Below are positions 25,697 to 63,244 of a stretch of DNA of 64,000 nt, piece by piece. Location of the stretch: the NCBI RefSeq assembly GCF_900198625.1, contig NZ_FZPK01000008.1, forward strand, positions 16,499 to 80,498. Reading direction: 5' to 3'. The notes beneath the pieces were generated by a model. The model made no database searches. It worked only from the letters and a program-made list of their open reading frames with translations, and was not told where the DNA came from. Every line of letters begins with the position of its first letter. Position 1 is the stretch's first letter. The DNA comes from Helicobacter rappini (GTDB lineage: Bacteria; Campylobacterota; Campylobacteria; Campylobacterales; Helicobacteraceae). A program made the translations under genes and the position numbers.

Positions 25697-28366
25697 ATGC
25701 GTCGCTTTATAAATGTTATTGCTTTGGTGTTTGCAGCAGCTTTGTTTTTATTGTGTTTCTATAATGATAAGATAAAAATCACGCAAGAAGTGCTTGATTT
25801 ATTCCCACAAACAGAGGATAAGCAAATCATTGACATTTATCAAAAGTTTGCAAACTCAAATCATATCCTTGTAGCTATAAAAGGATTTAGTCAAGAATCT
25901 AGGGATACGCTAGATGAGTTTTTATTTAAAATAAAAGATGTGCCAAATATAGATAGTGTGATTACTCGCACAAGTGCTTCAGAATCTCTAGAAGATTTTC
26001 TCGCACAGGATTATCTCTATACTGCTAGTCCCAAGCCTTTAGATAAGGTGCTTACAAAAGAAGAGATTGAATCGCGTGTGCTAAATGGACTACAATCACT
26101 ACAATCTCAAATGCTTGAAGAAGAGGTGCTTGATAGTGGATTAATTGATATAGAAAAAATGAGAGATTCTAAAGATATAGAATCTAAACAAAGTGTAGAT
26201 TCTAATAAAGATTCTAAAAAAGAGAATGTGAAAAATACTCAAAAAGATATAGAATCTAAAATCAATGAAAATAAGGATATTTCACCTTTTTTAAAGGCTC
26301 AAAATGATAAAAACATAGAATCTAAAAACAACGCACAATCTTATAATACGGTATTTCACCCAAGTGATCCTTTGCAACTTTTAATATTGCAGACACCAAA
26401 GCCCTATATTTTTGTGGCAAAAGATTATGGCTATATGGCTATTGTAACGATGAAAGATGTAAAAAGTGAGAGTGTAAAAGAGACTTTGGAGGGCTTTGCA
26501 CGCATTGCAACAGAGTATCCAAACATTCGGTATTTTTCACAAAATTTTATGAGTGTAGAAAATCTAGGCTTAATCCTTAATGAAGTCAATTTCTTGCTAA
26601 GTTTTGCAACCCTTGCATTTATTACGCTGTATTTTGTGATTATCCGCATTCCACTGCTTACATTAAATACGATTTGCACTCTTATCACTGCAAATATTAT
26701 CGCCATTTTAGTGGTATCAAGCGTATATCCAAAGGTAACGATTATGGCATTAAGCTTTGGCATGGGGATTAGCAATATTGCTATTGATTACATGATGCAT
26801 CATAATTTCTTCAATCTCTATGTAGGTGGCAAAAAGGTGTTTAATCGCCCTGTATTTTATGGCTATATTACCACTATTATTGGCTTTAGTGCGTGTTTGT
26901 TTATACCATTTCCCCTGCTTTCTCAACTTTCTTTATACGCGATTATTTCGCTTACACTTTGCTATATTAGCTTTGCGTTTATGTATCCAAAGATTGGTTT
27001 TAGTAAGCCTAGATTATTCCCCAAACTCGCACAGATTAGATTCCAAAAAGTCTCTAGCTATACATTTTTAGGGCTGTCTTTGTGTGCCTTTGTGTTTGCG
27101 TTTATGTTTTTGCGACTTGATTTTGATCTCTCAAAGCTTGATTATCAAAATAAGCGTATGCAGAATGAACGCACATTTTTTACAAACGCACAAAATAATA
27201 CGACACAGATTTTATTATCAAGTAGTAGTCTTGATAGCCTAATTGCTCTTGCTAGGGATTTGCAGGACTTTTTACATACAAACAATGCAAAGACTTTTAT
27301 CCCACTCTCACTCTTGCCTACACAAAGTCAAATGGATTTAAATGCTAAATTTATAGAATCTAAGCTTGTAGCAGACAATAAAGCCGCATTATTGCAATCA
27401 CTCCCGCATTTACGCACAAAAATACTACAAATATTAAATGAAGATTCCATAGATGAAGATATGAGTTTAGAAGATAAAATGGCGTTTATAGATGAGCTAT
27501 TTGCTATGTTTAAAGAGAGTTATATGCTTGGTGATAAACCACAACTAAGCTTAGAGAATCTCTCTGCTATGGGCTTTAATATTGTTGTGGAAGATAGAGA
27601 TTCTAAAGCTATTGTAGATTCTATAAAATATAATGCTATTACAGATTTTGGGATAACTAAAGATTCTAATAAAATTACAGAATCTACTGATACAAACATA
27701 GAATCTAACAGCACAGCAGAAACTAAAGATTCTACACAATCTAGCACAAAAAGATTCTATTATTTAGCTATCGTAAATAATAGTGATTTAGATTATATTA
27801 AAACTTTTTCAAAACAGCTTGAGAATGCAGAATCACTTGAAAGCATAAAAGATTCTAACACCAACATGCAACAGCCAAAAAACACAGAATCTAGCATTGA
27901 AATGCGAGGCTTACAGCATATTATGGATAATATCACAGATACGATTTATAAGCCTATGCTTATAGTCCTTGCTATTGCGTTATGTTTAATGATTTGTATG
28001 CTTTTTATTACAGCTAGAGAGGCATTTTTAGATTCTGTTGTGTTTGTATTATTTCCACTTGCTTGCACGCTTTGTGTGATAGCAGCACATAGCACGCTAA
28101 ATATCATGCATCTTTTTGCTTTGCTTATCCTTGTAGTTGTAAGTGTTGATTATGGGATCTATTCTGTAAAAGAAGGGCAGAATCTACGCACAGCCCATGC
28201 GATATTCTTTTCAGTTTTAACAACAGGCGTATCATTTGGAATCTTAATCATAAGCAAGACAAAAGCACTCAATTCATTTGGGGAAGTTATCTTTGTAGGT
28301 ATGCTTTGCATTCTTGCTTTACTTATTTTACATCGTCCATTATATCAAAGTAAGAAATTGTCATAA
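25697..28366 (+). CDS. RND/MMPL superfamily exporter
   Basis: The 889-residue protein has one N-terminal membrane helix (about 5-22), a periplasmic region, a cluster of helices at about 295-430, a second periplasmic region and a second cluster at about 750-885. This is the duplicated layout of MMPL/HpnN-type exporters, which move lipids or hydrophobic compounds. Segments typical of the core are [20 protein letters not shown] and [20 protein letters not shown]. Two low-complexity inserts rich in DSK and ESK repeats lie at about 150-215 and 635-700. The first contains one arm of the palindromic element (26274-26310). The cargo is unknown. No periplasmic adaptor or outer-membrane channel is adjacent. 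Confidence 0.88.
26274..26310 (+). repeat. Single arm of the palindromic coding element, inside the RND exporter
   Basis: The segment encodes [12 protein letters not shown], about residues 194-205. It matches the right arm found twice in thiE, including the reading frame, and one arm of the intergenic copy near 62.3 kb. It lies in the low-complexity insert, not in a conserved part of the exporter. Confidence 0.75.
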
Positions 28367-49339: not shown

Positions 49340-50476
49340 ATGAAAAATACGAGATTAAAAGGGCTTTATGGTATCAGTGATACAAAGCTAACGCCTACAA
49401 AGACTTTAATAGCACAATTGCAAAAAGCAATACAAGGTGGTTTAAAGATATTTCAATATAGAGATAAAGATTCTAAAGATAGTGAGATTATAGGACTTGT
49501 GGGGGAATTACAAGCCTTATGTAATGAAAATAATGTGCTTTTTGTGTTAAATGATAGATATGAGCTTGCTATAAAGCTTGGGGTAAGTGGGCTGCATTTA
49601 GGCAAAGATGAAGTATCACAGCTTTTGGATATTAGAGAATCTTTTAAGGGTATTATAGGGGTGAGTTGCTATGATAGCATAGAGTTAGCACAACGCTATG
49701 AGAGTGCTAAAGTCGATTATGTAGCTTTTGGGTCTCTCTTTCCCTCACCTACAAAAAGGGACGCTAAGCCTTGTCCTTTAAGCGTTATAGTAGAAGCTAA
49801 ACATAAACTAAAGATTCCAATATGTGGCATAGGTGGCATTTGTGTAGATAATGTATCTTTACTAAAAGAATGTGATATGATTGCTGTGATTTCTAGTTTG
49901 TGGAATATAGATTCTAAAAATTACGCCCCAAACCCCGCAGCCTACCCAAATTTGGCGGATAAACTAGATACTAAAATAACCACTTGTCATACTGAGCCTT
50001 TAGGCGAAGTATCTAGCATGGAATCTAAAAAAGATTTTTCGCCTATGACTCAAAATGACAAACAAATTCTAGATTCTATAACGACTTCACATAAAGATAT
50101 TTCACCTTTTTCAAAGGCTCAATATGACAAGATTCTGGAATCTATAACAACAAACCACGCAAACAAAACCACAAATTCTAGCAGTTGCTCTATGGCTTTA
50201 GAGGCTTTAAGCGAATTAGAAGATATGAGTTATTTAAGTGATATGACTATCCATCACAATTCGCTTAATCTTTCAAATTGTATAGACAAGGGCGCAAATT
50301 TAGAGAATCAAAATTCTAGTCAAAATGCACCCCTAAACCCTGCACCCACCCAAGCGGTTAAAAATCAAGATTCTAAAAATCTTGCACCATTTAAGGCAGA
50401 AGATCTAAAAGATAGCGATTATAACTACATAACTGCTAATGCAAAGAATCTTATAGCCGCATGGCAGACTAAATAA
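49340..50476 (+). CDS. thiE: Thiamine-phosphate synthase with a long repeat-built C-terminal tail
   Basis: Residues 1 to about 205 are a complete TIM-barrel ThiE: LYGISDTKLTP, the pyrophosphate region FQYRDKDSKDSE, VLNDRYELAIKLGVSGLHLG, FGSLFPSPTKRDAKP and ICGIGGICVDN. It joins the thiazole and pyrimidine moieties of thiamine. The usual length is about 210. The remaining 170 residues are low-complexity and built from mobile-looking units: a full palindromic element (residues about 216-241), a single arm (about 253-264) and a 35-nt cassette shared with the TsaB-like gene (about 312-323). The tail has no recognised fold. It lies between trpE and a peroxidase gene 17 nt downstream. Confidence 0.9.
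   Translation: MKNTRLKGLYGISDTKLTPTKTLIAQLQKAIQGGLKIFQYRDKDSKDSEIIGLVGELQALCNENNVLFVLNDRYELAIKLGVSGLHLGKDEVSQLLDIRESFKGIIGVSCYDSIELAQRYESAKVDYVAFGSLFPSPTKRDAKPCPLSVIVEAKHKLKIPICGIGGICVDNVSLLKECDMIAVISSLWNIDSKNYAPNPAAYPNLADKLDTKITTCHTEPLGEVSSMESKKDFSPMTQNDKQILDSITTSHKDISPFSKAQYDKILESITTNHANKTTNSSSCSMALEALSELEDMSYLSDMTIHHNSLNLSNCIDKGANLENQNSSQNAPLNPAPTQAVKNQDSKNLAPFKAEDLKDSDYNYITANAKNLIAAWQTK
49984..50061 (+). repeat. Full palindromic element inside thiE
   Basis: Seventy-eight bp with arms 49984-50014 and 50031-50061. Both arms, read inward, begin TTGTCAT, contain TGAG and GGCGAA, and reach an ATCT. The element stays in frame and is translated as HTEPLGEVSSMESKKDFSPM and following residues. 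The intergenic copy at 62252-62328 has the same size. Confidence 0.8.
50095..50130 (+). repeat. Single arm of the palindromic element inside thiE
   Basis: Encodes DISPFSKAQYDK in the same frame as the right arm of the neighbouring full element and as the arm in the RND exporter. Confidence 0.75.
50275..50309 (+). repeat. 35-nt coding cassette shared with the TsaB-like gene
   Basis: Encodes NCIDKGANLEN; differs from 10788-10822 (minus strand) at two positions, while flanks are unrelated. Confidence 0.7.
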
Positions 50477-59502: not shown

Positions 59503-61902
59503 CTAAAAATTATATCTCAATTCCGCATAATAGTTTCTACCAAGGGCTGGGGCATAGAGTGGGTATTTTTGATAGGTAGCATACCAAGAGTTAAAAAGAT
59601 TTCGCACGCCGACATTAATTTTTACATCTTTAACGCTAAACATAGCACCTAAATCACTCAGCACATAGCCACCCTTATTCATAATATGACTTTTTCCCGC
59701 TGCATTGCTTGTGCCGCTTGTAGAATCAAGTGATTGCGAAATGTAGGTATTATTGAAAAAGAGTGTAAGGTTTAGGGTGTTTGTCCGCAAAATATCAGCT
59801 TCTACATTGAGAGTTGCTTTAAGCCATGGGACATAAGGCACCATGTTGCCCTGCAAATGGGCGTTTGCGACATTTGTTTGCAATATATTTGTATAAAGCA
59901 TGCCTATACTTTCACTTAGTCTTAGCCATGAAGTATCAAAAAAGCTTTGTTGCGCACTAAGTTCTGCACCCACTCTTTGTGTCTGCCCTAGATTGCTGTA
60001 TGTATAGGCTGTGCCATGCGTGATATTATTTACAAAAATCTCATTAAATGTATGCGTATAAAAAAGTGTTGCAGAGATATAGCTAAAGTCAATTTCATCT
60101 TTCATGCCTATTTCAGCGGTGATATATTGCTCTGGTTTAATGCCGTTTGATTCATTTCTCTTTAATTGACTGCTATTGTTGCTACTATTTATACTTGAGT
60201 TTGGATCGGCATTAATCATTTGAAAAGCACTAGGGCTTATAAAGCCTAACTCCAGCTTTGCATAGGTGTTGCCTGTATCGCTGTATTGATAGCTTGGTGT
60301 GATTTCTGCAGCATAGCTTAGGTTTTGTGCGTGGTCTTTGAAGTTAAGATATTCGCTAGATTCTGTTGTGTTGTTATTAGTTTTTGTTTTTTGCCAATAG
60401 TCTTGGATATTTTGCATCCAATAGTTAGAATACTCTAGACGCACACCACCACTAAGCTTTATGGAATCTGTAAAGCTAAAGCTATCAAATACATAGAGAC
60501 TATTTGATAGCTTTATGGCGGTATTTGTGATATTTGTTATGTAGTGTATCATTTGCGATGAAGTAGCCCTAAAAGATCTCCCCTTTGCATTCATAGGAAA
60601 AAAGTGATTGATATGATTTATACGCTTTGAAGCTTCTAGGATATTATCAAGTCCTAGCATAAGTGTATTATTTGTCGTTGTGTATTTTGCCTTTAGATTC
60701 AGTCCTGCGGCATGATTTTGGAATCCGCTAGGCTTTCCCATATCCATGATACCTGCTGGACAAAATGATCCCGTTGCCTTTGTGCTAATGCAGTATTCAT
60801 ACTCCATATATCTTGTAAGTGAGAATTGATAAAAGGCTAACGCATCAAAGTCTAGATTCTCACTCCATTTTGTCGTGTAGTTAAGTGAAGTTTGCAGGGA
60901 GTCATTTTGCGTTTTTATGGTGTATTCATCTGGGTTGTTTCGCTCTTTTTTTATGGTGCTTTCATCTTTTGTGATTGTTGTTGAACTGCTACCATTATTC
61001 CTAATAGTAGAAGTATATGAGAGATAGCTTAGAGGGATACTCTGCCATGAGTGTGAGTAGCTGATATTAAAGTCATATTTTTGATTCTCAGTGGGATTAT
61101 ATAGGGCTTGAAAGGCGGTGTAGAGATTTGTCTCATTATCATTGCTAAAGGCTTTAATCTTACTTTTATCAGTAGCCACACCCGCAGCATTACGCGCCCC
61201 GGGCGTATATCCCGCACTCACATCGCCTTTTATGAATAGATTCTCACCAACCTTTTTACCACTAGCAATACTTAAACTCCCACCTTGAAGCCCCACACTC
61301 TCCCCGCTTATCGCTTTTAATACTACGCGGTTAAAATCCTTGCTTGGCATTTTTGTAACAATATTTATAACCCCACCCCTTGTGCCATTACCATATACCA
61401 CAGCCCCACCGCCGGGTATTATCTCTATCCTTTCCACATTGTCAATATCTATATTATTATAGGGCGAAACGCCATGAGAGGTATCTAGCAGGGATATAGG
61501 CACACGATTGACTAGGATTTTCACCGCACGATTAGAATCTAGTCCTTGACCTCTTAGGTCTATATTATTGCCAAATCCATTGCTATTAAAAGTGATAAGG
61601 GGGCTGTATTGCAAAGCTTGATTAATGTTTAAAAACCCCTTGTTTTGCAGCTCTTCTTTGTCTATCAATAGAATATTTTTTGCTTCATCTTTGAGTGGTA
61701 AATCAAAGCCTGTGCTAGAGGTTACCACAGCATTTAGTCGCTTTGTTTGCGTATCTGTATCGCCTTGCGTGGAATCTAGCAGGGCAGCCAGTTTGTCATT
61801 TGTCGCTATTTCATTCGCACATAAACTTTGACTTAAAGATATGCTTAGTAATGCAGCGGATAGAATGAGTTTTGAACCTTTTTGTGTTCGTATATTACAC
61901 AT
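59503..61902 (-). CDS. TonB-dependent outer-membrane receptor, siderophore/heme type
   Basis: The 799-residue receptor has a signal peptide (LILSAALLSISLSQSLCANE at about 12-31). The plug domain starts with LLIDKEELQNKGFLNINQAL and includes NNIDLRGQGLDSNR and ERIEIIPGGGAVVYGNGTRG. The rest is a 22-strand barrel ending in YYAELRYNF with a terminal phenylalanine. It resembles FecA/FhuE-like siderophore receptors; the ligand is unknown. Expression is probably iron-dependent, as a Fur-like site precedes it. No exbB, tonB or periplasmic binding protein is adjacent. Confidence 0.93.
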   Translation of the reverse strand: MCNIRTQKGSKLILSAALLSISLSQSLCANEIATNDKLAALLDSTQGDTDTQTKRLNAVVTSSTGFDLPLKDEAKNILLIDKEELQNKGFLNINQALQYSPLITFNSNGFGNNIDLRGQGLDSNRAVKILVNRVPISLLDTSHGVSPYNNIDIDNVERIEIIPGGGAVVYGNGTRGGVINIVTKMPSKDFNRVVLKAISGESVGLQGGSLSIASGKKVGENLFIKGDVSAGYTPGARNAAGVATDKSKIKAFSNDNETNLYTAFQALYNPTENQKYDFNISYSHSWQSIPLSYLSYTSTIRNNGSSSTTITKDESTIKKERNNPDEYTIKTQNDSLQTSLNYTTKWSENLDFDALAFYQFSLTRYMEYEYCISTKATGSFCPAGIMDMGKPSGFQNHAAGLNLKAKYTTTNNTLMLGLDNILEASKRINHINHFFPMNAKGRSFRATSSQMIHYITNITNTAIKLSNSLYVFDSFSFTDSIKLSGGVRLEYSNYWMQNIQDYWQKTKTNNNTTESSEYLNFKDHAQNLSYAAEITPSYQYSDTGNTYAKLELGFISPSAFQMINADPNSSINSSNNSSQLKRNESNGIKPEQYITAEIGMKDEIDFSYISATLFYTHTFNEIFVNNITHGTAYTYSNLGQTQRVGAELSAQQSFFDTSWLRLSESIGMLYTNILQTNVANAHLQGNMVPYVPWLKATLNVEADILRTNTLNLTLFFNNTYISQSLDSTSGTSNAAGKSHIMNKGGYVLSDLGAMFSVKDVKINVGVRNLFNSWYATYQKYPLYAPALGRNYYAELRYNF

Positions 61903-61969: not shown

Positions 61970-62533
61970 CTTGCATAATTGAATATTAAATATTTTAAGT
62001 AAAATATGTTACTTTGAGTAACTAGATTTTAGATAGATAGGAATTGTATGAGATAAAAATATTGAGAATGTCTCTAATAAAGTAGTTTGCTATCTTAAAA
62101 CTTTAGAATCTTGGTTTGTAGTGCAAGGTTAAAAAATATTATTCTATTGAAAATATCCAAAAGAATAAAATCTTGTGTTAAACAAAAAAAGTATAGGGGA
62201 ATAAAGTAGTGTATCATTCAATAAAATATCTAGTCTCTAGATTCTAGATTCTTGTCGTTTTGAGCCGTAGGCTAAAAATCGTTTTAGATTCTATGCTAGA
62301 TATTTCGGCTCACGCCTCAATATGACAATTATTTCGAATCTAGCACATTTCAAAACGCCCTGCGGAAGTATTTTTGAGTTAGAATCGGGGTTTTACGAGC
62401 CGAGTGCAAGGAGTTTATTAAACATATGCAGTGGCAAAGCCACAAATCCACACTTGCAAAATGACGAAGCACGAGACGAAGTAATCGCCGATTCTAGCCA
62501 AAAAGACAACGCAAAATCTAAAATCTAAACTTC
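61970..62533. other. Repeat-rich spacer between the TonB receptor and sirtuin genes
   Basis: About 560 bp with no convincing gene. It contains a full palindromic element at 62252-62328 and then GC-richer sequence to about 62528 holding a GTGGC-AAA-GCCAC hairpin at 62431-62443. A short frame at 62322-62528 starts inside the palindrome and is read here as repeat-derived. Confidence 0.55.
62252..62328. repeat. Full palindromic element, intergenic copy
   Basis: Seventy-seven bp. Left arm from TTGTCGTTTTGAGCC, right arm ending CTCAATATGACAA; the centre contains AGATTCTATGCTAGATA. Size, arm sequence and the internal GATTCTA match the copy in thiE, but this copy is not translated. Confidence 0.8.
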
Positions 62534-63244
62534 TTAAGATTCTATAAATTCTCCCACAAGCCTTTCAATCTTAGGAGCAGCACTTACAGCAGATTCTATA
62601 AAACACATATTGAAACACTCATCAAACCAGCTAGATTCTAAGTTATTTAACACACTCTTTTTTGCACATTGACTAAATTGTGCGACATTTAGCACTTCTC
62701 CACTTGTGCCAATGCAGACAAATAAGCTATTCTCACTCTCACTTAGTCTCTCTAGCTCTCTAGCTAACAAGGCATAGTTTGGGGCATATTCGCTAAACAT
62801 CACAATATTATGTCTTAAAGATTCTTCCCCACAAGATTCACATATAAGTTTTGGCATAGCTTGATAACCAATATTTGTGATAGTCTCACACAATTCACAA
62901 CGCACTTCAGGTAAGAATCCGTGCAAGTGAATGACATTTTTACACCCAGCTCGCTCCAACAAGTCATCTACATTTTGCGTGATGACTACTACTTCTTGTG
63001 GATAGTTTGCTTTGAGCCTTGCTATCATCTTATGTGCGGCATTTGGATTAACTTCTCCTAATTGTATCCGCCTTTTATCATAGAAATCTAGCACCTTTTT
63101 TCTATCCTTAGCAAAGCCACTCGCACTACATACTTCCATAATGTCAAACTCTTCCCATAAGCCATCATTATCACGGAATGTCCGCAATCCACTTTCTGCA
63201 CTAAGCCCAGCTCCACTAAATATCATTACTCGTTTAGAATCCAT
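62534..63244 (-). CDS. CobB-type sirtuin (NAD-dependent protein deacylase)
   Basis: The 236-residue enzyme has GAGLSAESGLRTFRDNDGLW (about 11-30), VVITQNVDDLLERAG with HLHG (about 86-109), four zinc cysteines (CELC and CESC at about 115-137), and CIGTSGEVLNVA (about 177-188). DFYDKRR provides the Tyr-x-x-Arg pair typical of class III sirtuins that remove succinyl as well as acetyl groups. It uses NAD to deacylate lysines such as those of acetyl-CoA synthetase. Its start overlaps the stop of the next upstream gene by one base, so the two are coupled. Confidence 0.93.
   Translation of the reverse strand: MDSKRVMIFSGAGLSAESGLRTFRDNDGLWEEFDIMEVCSASGFAKDRKKVLDFYDKRRIQLGEVNPNAAHKMIARLKANYPQEVVVITQNVDDLLERAGCKNVIHLHGFLPEVRCELCETITNIGYQAMPKLICESCGEESLRHNIVMFSEYAPNYALLARELERLSESENSLFVCIGTSGEVLNVAQFSQCAKKSVLNNLESSWFDECFNMCFIESAVSAAPKIERLVGEFIES

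Follow-up and report, generated by a model that had tools for sequence, protein, structure and literature searches.

In the Helicobacter bilis group, many protein genes contain, in frame, copies of a family of TGTC-tagged hairpin repeats that is likely selfish. The predicted product is a floppy, hydrophilic peptide that host proteins would have to tolerate, and we consider this account probable. The sequences show that the hairpin is kept by compensating stem changes and that its copies pair as inverted dimers; copies are gained and lost between close relatives with the reading frame intact, and genic copies are almost confined to two frames. The family was followed up from a 64,000-nucleotide window (C60:16499-80498) of a 2.51-Mb, 98-contig assembly of the H. 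bilis group (genome G000), in which a sequence-only reading had described a palindromic element in thiE. The coordinates given there for the two arms of the 78-bp thiE element, a third arm, an intergenic pair and a further arm elsewhere all hold (Table 1).

Table 1 Features of the repeat family in the 64,000-nucleotide window
Feature	Position	Strand	Remarks
thiE, thiamine-phosphate synthase, 378 aa	49340..50476	+	ORF; Pfam TMP-TENI, residues 10-187 of open segment
Lineage-specific ThiE insert, residues ~194-352, several repeat modules	49919..50395	+	Predicted disordered; modules common to other ORFs
Inverted dimer, left arm, TGTC-tagged hairpin, peptide CHTEPLGEVS	49984..50015	+	
Dimer spacer	50016..50031	+	
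Inverted dimer, right arm, read from opposite strand as KDFSPMTQNDK	50032..50061	-	
Additional single arm, peptide KDISPFSKAQYDK, 33 bp past dimer	50095..50130	-	
20-nt direct repeat 1, flanks single arm	50066..50085	+	Read from sequence; period 66 nt
20-nt direct repeat 2	50132..50151	+	17/20 identical to repeat 1
Conserved C-terminal helix of ThiE, past insert	50411..50467	+	
Intergenic inverted dimer	62252..62328	.	Between ORFs 59503-61902 and 62534-63244
Degenerate single arm, in frame, 13-residue reading	26276..26309	-	889-aa ORF 25697-28366 (exporter according to the sequence-only reading)

Each arm is a hairpin of the form TTGTC-ATNNTGAG...CGAANNAT-CT(A), laid out as TTGTC, ATNN-TGAG, an inner stem-loop, CGAA-NNAT and CT(A). 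Genome-wide, the pattern GTCATNNTGAG N4-24 GAANNATC has 147 matches and its reversal none, confirming the earlier proposal of a dispersed repeat in many copies; a 29-base arm pattern allowing up to 3 mismatches has 33 matches, and again none when reversed. Within the 64-kb window the short motif GTCATNNTGAG, with 1 mismatch, is not enriched (15 matches against 11.9 expected), so the question of copy number was settled by the genome rather than the window. We analysed in detail the 109 of 147 arms that fall within sampled stretches of G000; the degenerate arm at 26276-26309 lies outside this strict-pattern set. Two stem positions on each side are free, with AT/AT, TT/AA, GT/AC and AC/GT as the main matched forms, and both variable pairs match in 94 of the 109 arms (27.5 expected if the sides were independent). 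Pairing is kept within long open segments (59 of 65 arms) as well as outside them (35 of 44). The conserved flank begins with TT ahead of GTC (T in 96% and 99% of the 109 arms); T thus precedes GTC, itself fixed by the search pattern, in 99%. ATC is followed by T in 90%, the tail after the fixed C reading T (90%) and A (56%), and flank conservation fades beyond. A conserved TGA/GAA mismatch breaks the stem, and the inner stem-loop segments span 7 to 15 nt.

Arms frequently occur together. Neighbouring pairs less than 80 nt apart number 33, of which 20 are tail-to-tail, the commonest tail-to-tail spacing between strict-pattern arms being 19 nt (9 of 20), and two different arm types are joined in 26 of the 33. 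The thiE element had been read as a single 78-bp inverted repeat; its arms are indeed inverted, but the dimer is composed of two smaller hairpins, because each arm is itself palindromic with co-varying stem pairs. The thiE dimer folds strongly (z -6.1 and -5.4 for the two strands, none of 200 shuffles being as stable). For the intergenic dimer the fold is weaker (z -3.4 and -2.6; equalled by 0 and 3 of 200 shuffles), and the fold of the two single arms is not significant (20 and 108 of 200). At the Rfam gathering score, the whole window contains no match to a known RNA family. A lax threshold returned five microRNA-precursor matches far below gathering (best E 6e-4), which we took to be generic hairpin matches and set aside.

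Arms reside in frame in unrelated proteins, as had been proposed. In the analysed set, open segments of at least 150 aa contain 65 of the 109 arms, and the remaining 44 lie elsewhere. These segments make up 80% of the bases analysed but carry only 60% of the arms, a mild avoidance of genes. The 65 coding arms are spread over 40 ORFs, some of them cut by the ends of a sampled stretch, and Pfam domains (E 1e-5) are present in 32 of the 40. Host domains, from which we read the gene names, include DXS, Der, DNA polymerase I (PolA), Mfd, FolP, UbiD, YidC, polyprenyl synthase, KdtA and TruD. Both der and dxs are usually essential, and at the cut-off applied G000 has just one match for each of the two proteins.

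Use of reading frame is strongly biased. Two of the five possible frames account for 60 of the 65 coding arms, where 25.8 would be expected with equal use of open frames (p about 2e-20). When a single arm is counted per ORF, the two frames account for 37 of 40, with 14.75 expected (p 3e-14). These p values serve as guides only, because copies are related and dimer arms in the same ORF are not independent. The sense frame CHxE...S is read in 35 arms and the antisense frame DxS... in 25, with 3 and 2 in other frames; a preference had been foreseen, but for one frame rather than two. Nor are the repeats tolerated simply because one frame is open, as had been suggested, since each coding arm offers two to four open frames and 60 of 65 nevertheless use the same two. 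Mean hydropathy is -1.18 and -0.70 in the two used frames and -0.17, +0.59 and +0.84 in the others, and in 41 of the 65 arms (21.1 expected) no other open frame is more hydrophilic than the one in use. Hydropathy alone does not fully explain why antisense phase 1 goes unused: with a mean of -0.17, this phase is open in 58 of 65 coding arms and used by none. Because 60 of 65 coding arms share two frames, repeat-encoded peptides are predicted in dozens of ordinary proteins.

In ThiE, an insert of about 160 residues separates the barrel from the conserved last helix. The element had been placed in the protein's tail; in ThiE orthologues a conserved C-terminal helix follows that position. AlphaFold2 (14 sequences) models the barrel and last helix confidently and assigns pLDDT below 50 to residues 194-258 and 272-352, predicting that the insert is disordered. 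The long insert is present in G000, in G006 of the same species, in G002 of another species of the genus and in G003. It is missing from the other 10 of 14 genus genomes, some of whose ThiE proteins have short unrelated linkers. The Der and DXS linkers, aligned and inspected by eye in the same number of genomes, likewise contain arm peptides in 4 and none in 10, bearing out the expected presence and absence among orthologues for all three proteins. Among the 120 ThiE relatives listed of 1556, query coverage exceeds 60% in 13, the organism names given for these being Helicobacter sp. and H. bilis, and is 48-56% in the other 107. Further places matching the insert as a whole number 36-54 in G000, G002, G003 and G006, whereas the remaining ten genomes of the genus have none.

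ThiE alleles of the H. bilis group vary at the single arm in frame-keeping steps. In 18 aligned sequences of the 120, this arm is missing from P0010 (named for H. bilis), present once in the window and tandemly doubled in P0003, and another module takes its place in P0008 and P0009. The 22 extra residues of P0003 equal the 66-nt distance between the 20-nt direct repeats that flank the arm. G006 thiE has 63 nt fewer at the single-arm site with the frame kept, and a separate 9-nt difference nearby. The arm-less allele differs at bases near the direct repeat, and no clean target-site duplication was demonstrated.

The remainder of the insert contains further modules. One, within ThiE at window positions 50160-50310, encodes SCSMALEALSELE...NRSNCIDKG. 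We rejected the idea that residues 265-330 of ThiE rest on a palindrome: there is one perfect 11-nt inverted repeat there and no excess fold stability (z -0.38), and this segment is kept as a dispersed protein module. For residues 255-338, at least six other places in G000 match wholly within the segment, and three sampled stretches clearly hold the module. Another, at 50323-50355, encodes MHPKPCTHPDLVENLES-like peptides from CACCC-rich DNA and recurs in unrelated ORFs of five sampled loci (L002, L003, L014, L016 and L067).

Copy number varies widely between relatives. Arm counts in the genus range from 0 in G013 (99% complete) and G010 (87%) up to 273 in G011. Arm matches occur in 52 of the 121 genomes of the family, many of these with a single and possibly chance match, compared with 1 match for the reversed control in all 121. 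Even richer in arms than G000 are G011, with 273 in 1.7 Mb, and G059, with 375 in 2.0 Mb. For G000 and G006 we compared 23 G000 sites from four regions, 7 of which could be placed by both flanks. Four of these have the same length with the arm kept, one (thiE) differs by the single arm, C43:59450 has an arm in both genomes with compensating stem changes and at C43:31503 the linker has diverged. The remaining 16 could not be placed, one being at an edge and 15 having no matching flanks, largely because gene order differs between the two genomes; in the reverse comparison, 6 of 17 G006 sites were placeable. In an ORF with a phospholipase domain, two strains of one species both carry the arm, with compensating stem changes.

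A second, much more abundant motif accompanies the arms. The octamer AGATTCTA/TAGAATCT occurs 139 times on both strands of the window, against 5.4 expected from trinucleotides, and at three loci in each of 14 genus genomes it is present in all 14 at 0.6-5.9 per kb. It has the look of an uptake signal or of some other motif spread genome-wide, and no paper on it came up in our literature search. Within window open segments of 200 aa or more, 79 of 107 octamers are in the frame that reads Asp-Ser or Glu-Ser (DS/ES). In a competing account, which we regard as possible but clearly the less favoured, arms and modules are passengers between AGATTCTA copies and are moved by recombination, perhaps after DNA uptake, with the frame kept because genic octamers mostly read Asp-Ser or Glu-Ser. 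Consistent with this, octamer density in G000 is fivefold higher within 40 bp of an arm (12.9 per kb compared with 2.5). Around coding arms, the DS/ES frame holds 31 of the 32 octamers read sense and 26 of the 32 read antisense. Around non-coding arms, one-third is also exceeded in some phases (for antisense, 13 of 16 inside and 7 of 13 outside; for sense, 8 of 16 inside and 6 of 13 outside). The thiE site, with 0, 1 or 2 arm units or another module between octamer-encoded residues, and its 66-nt direct-repeat period point the same way. Against it, the two octamers flanking an arm are in the same phase in 20 of 25 cases within long open segments and in only 2 of 7 beyond them. On these small numbers, a lock coupling both ends is not clearly a property of the unit itself, and we set aside a frame lock inherent to octamer-bounded cassettes. 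Arm-bearing loci of Campylobacter troglodytis, Mucispirillum and rumen genomes hold only 7 octamers in 54 kb, and the octamer is common in arm-free G013 (1.2 per kb). The octamer may be a feature in its own right, marking places that can accommodate arms.

The strong fold of the thiE dimer and the compensating stem changes could also reflect a hairpin that is useful to the cell, as an RNA structure governing mRNA folding, stability or termination or as a DNA site recognised by gyrase or a nucleoid protein, and PMC3733652 discusses transcribed REPs as possible post-transcriptional elements. We think this unlikely: the arms occupy unrelated genes, are gained and lost among close relatives and have no match in the 99% complete genome G013. 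A still smaller chance attaches to the inserts being absent from the mature protein through translational bypass or removal, as in the mitochondria of Magnusiomyces. The presence of inserts in genes found once in G000 (der and dxs) would fit such a process, but bypassed elements need no open frame, and yet 60 of 65 arms keep two frames and the thiE length change of 63 nt is a multiple of three. Palindromes in coding genes are common to both systems, but those of Magnusiomyces, mentioned in PMC6649704, are bypassed untranslated, whereas the Helicobacter arms maintain open frames.

Spread of a GTAG-type REP or REPIN by a RAYT (Y1 transposase) is equally improbable, for although its dispersed small hairpins in inverted dimers have a similar anatomy, the conserved end here is TTGTC rather than GTAG and G000 has no match to PF01797 (Y1 transposase), the one family covered by our transposase search. 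PF01797 is found in 29 of 121 family genomes, and among the 18 genomes with at least 20 arms it occurs only in G118, as one match (E 3e-11); we therefore rejected a resident RAYT or other Y1 transposase as the mobiliser. Arm arrays adjoin type I restriction specificity genes at L061 (by Pfam) and at L001 and L004 (by ORF reading), the latter two arrays lying outside long open segments. The L001 and L004 genes flanked by arrays were considered as mobilisers and dismissed, as their ORFs read as type I restriction specificity genes rather than a transposase.

For a selfish hairpin family, an enzyme or a replication-linked process would copy the single-stranded hairpin to new sites, and selection would remove insertions in damaging frames or within folded domains. 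Surviving copies would be those in linkers, beside the abundant octamer AGATTCTA, and direct octamer copies could then allow a unit to be lost or duplicated by recombination in frame-keeping steps.

Among known systems, the closest likeness is to CGTC/TGTC-tagged REPs, described in PMC3733652, which assigns RPE-4 and RPE-6 of Rickettsia to the class, states that most REPs are intergenic with some intragenic cases and reports CGTC REPs without a dedicated transposase. The Helicobacter arms share with this class a small hairpin, an unpaired TGTC tag, a palindromic stem that opens with AT and is maintained by pairing, a short tail, a predominance of inverted dimers, some genic copies and the lack of a dedicated transposase (here with PF01797 alone searched). 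The arms differ in that their stem is broken by TGA/GAA and that 65 of 109 lie in long open segments. CGTC/TGTC REPs have a stem of 8-9 bp, a loop of 4-5 nt and a 3-nt tail; the inner stem-loop segments of the Helicobacter arms span 7-15 nt. We conclude that the arms are probably kin to the CGTC/TGTC REP superfamily and, given their stem geometry, only possibly full members of it, forming a TGTC-class palindrome family that in the H. bilis clade lies largely in frame within proteins and is likely selfish.

Protein-coding palindromes are discussed mainly for Rickettsia and a few other bacteria. The parallel drawn earlier with Rickettsia palindromic elements (RPEs) stands for their way of life, as both are palindromes in frame within unrelated conserved proteins, a comparison we make by description, but not for host or size. 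RPEs are 105-146 bp, compared with 78 bp for the Helicobacter dimer, and according to PMC2229807 they are in frame in 19 reading frames and an RPE-bearing guanylate kinase is translated and active; RPE translation is thus shown, whereas here it is predicted. By host, the Helicobacter element is not an RPE. The class itself is known, and the exact 29-mer occurs outside the genus; the word 'Helicobacter' is absent from the main text of PMC3733652. Among the titles and abstract openings listed in our literature search there is no Helicobacter description, which is weak evidence of absence as subscription papers mostly fall outside its coverage.

The family offers a culturable gut bacterium with 147 arms, congeners that are rich in the element or lack it, and alleles that vary within a species group. 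Several questions thereby become testable: by what means a repeat moves when no transposase is apparent, under which conditions an in-frame insertion is tolerated and whether disordered linkers lengthen as selfish DNA accumulates in them. The family also carries a warning for annotation, because peptides such as CHTEPLGEVS and KDISPFSKAQYDK that are common to unrelated Helicobacter proteins are repeats, not domains.

A search with the exact 29-mer returned 42 titled loci, including Campylobacter troglodytis, Mucispirillum metagenome-assembled genomes (MAGs) and rumen genomes. In the Helicobacter loci of this exact-match set, which include orthologues of copies in G000 itself, 72 of 91 arms lie in long open segments and 70 of the 72 use the two frames. 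By contrast, all 16 arms in the C. troglodytis, Mucispirillum and rumen loci, picked by the same exact match, lie outside open segments of 150 aa; 14 have matched stems and 2 lie in short open segments of 86-87 aa. The repeat class is thus broader than Helicobacter, and residence in genes is special to the Helicobacter clade. We tentatively raise a wider scenario, more doubtful than the selfish-hairpin account itself, in which a usually extragenic repeat class moved into the proteome of the H. bilis clade and the linkers of many of its enzymes are built of exchangeable frame-keeping modules (TGTC arms, MHPKPCTHPDLVENLES and SCSMALEALSELE) with AGATTCTA as the joint. If true, disordered protein regions would evolve by the swapping of selfish DNA cassettes. 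The exact 29-base arm occurs at five loci (L092, L100, L109, L118 and L125) in Mucispirillum MAGs, from another phylum, and these copies may reflect either transfer or MAG contamination.
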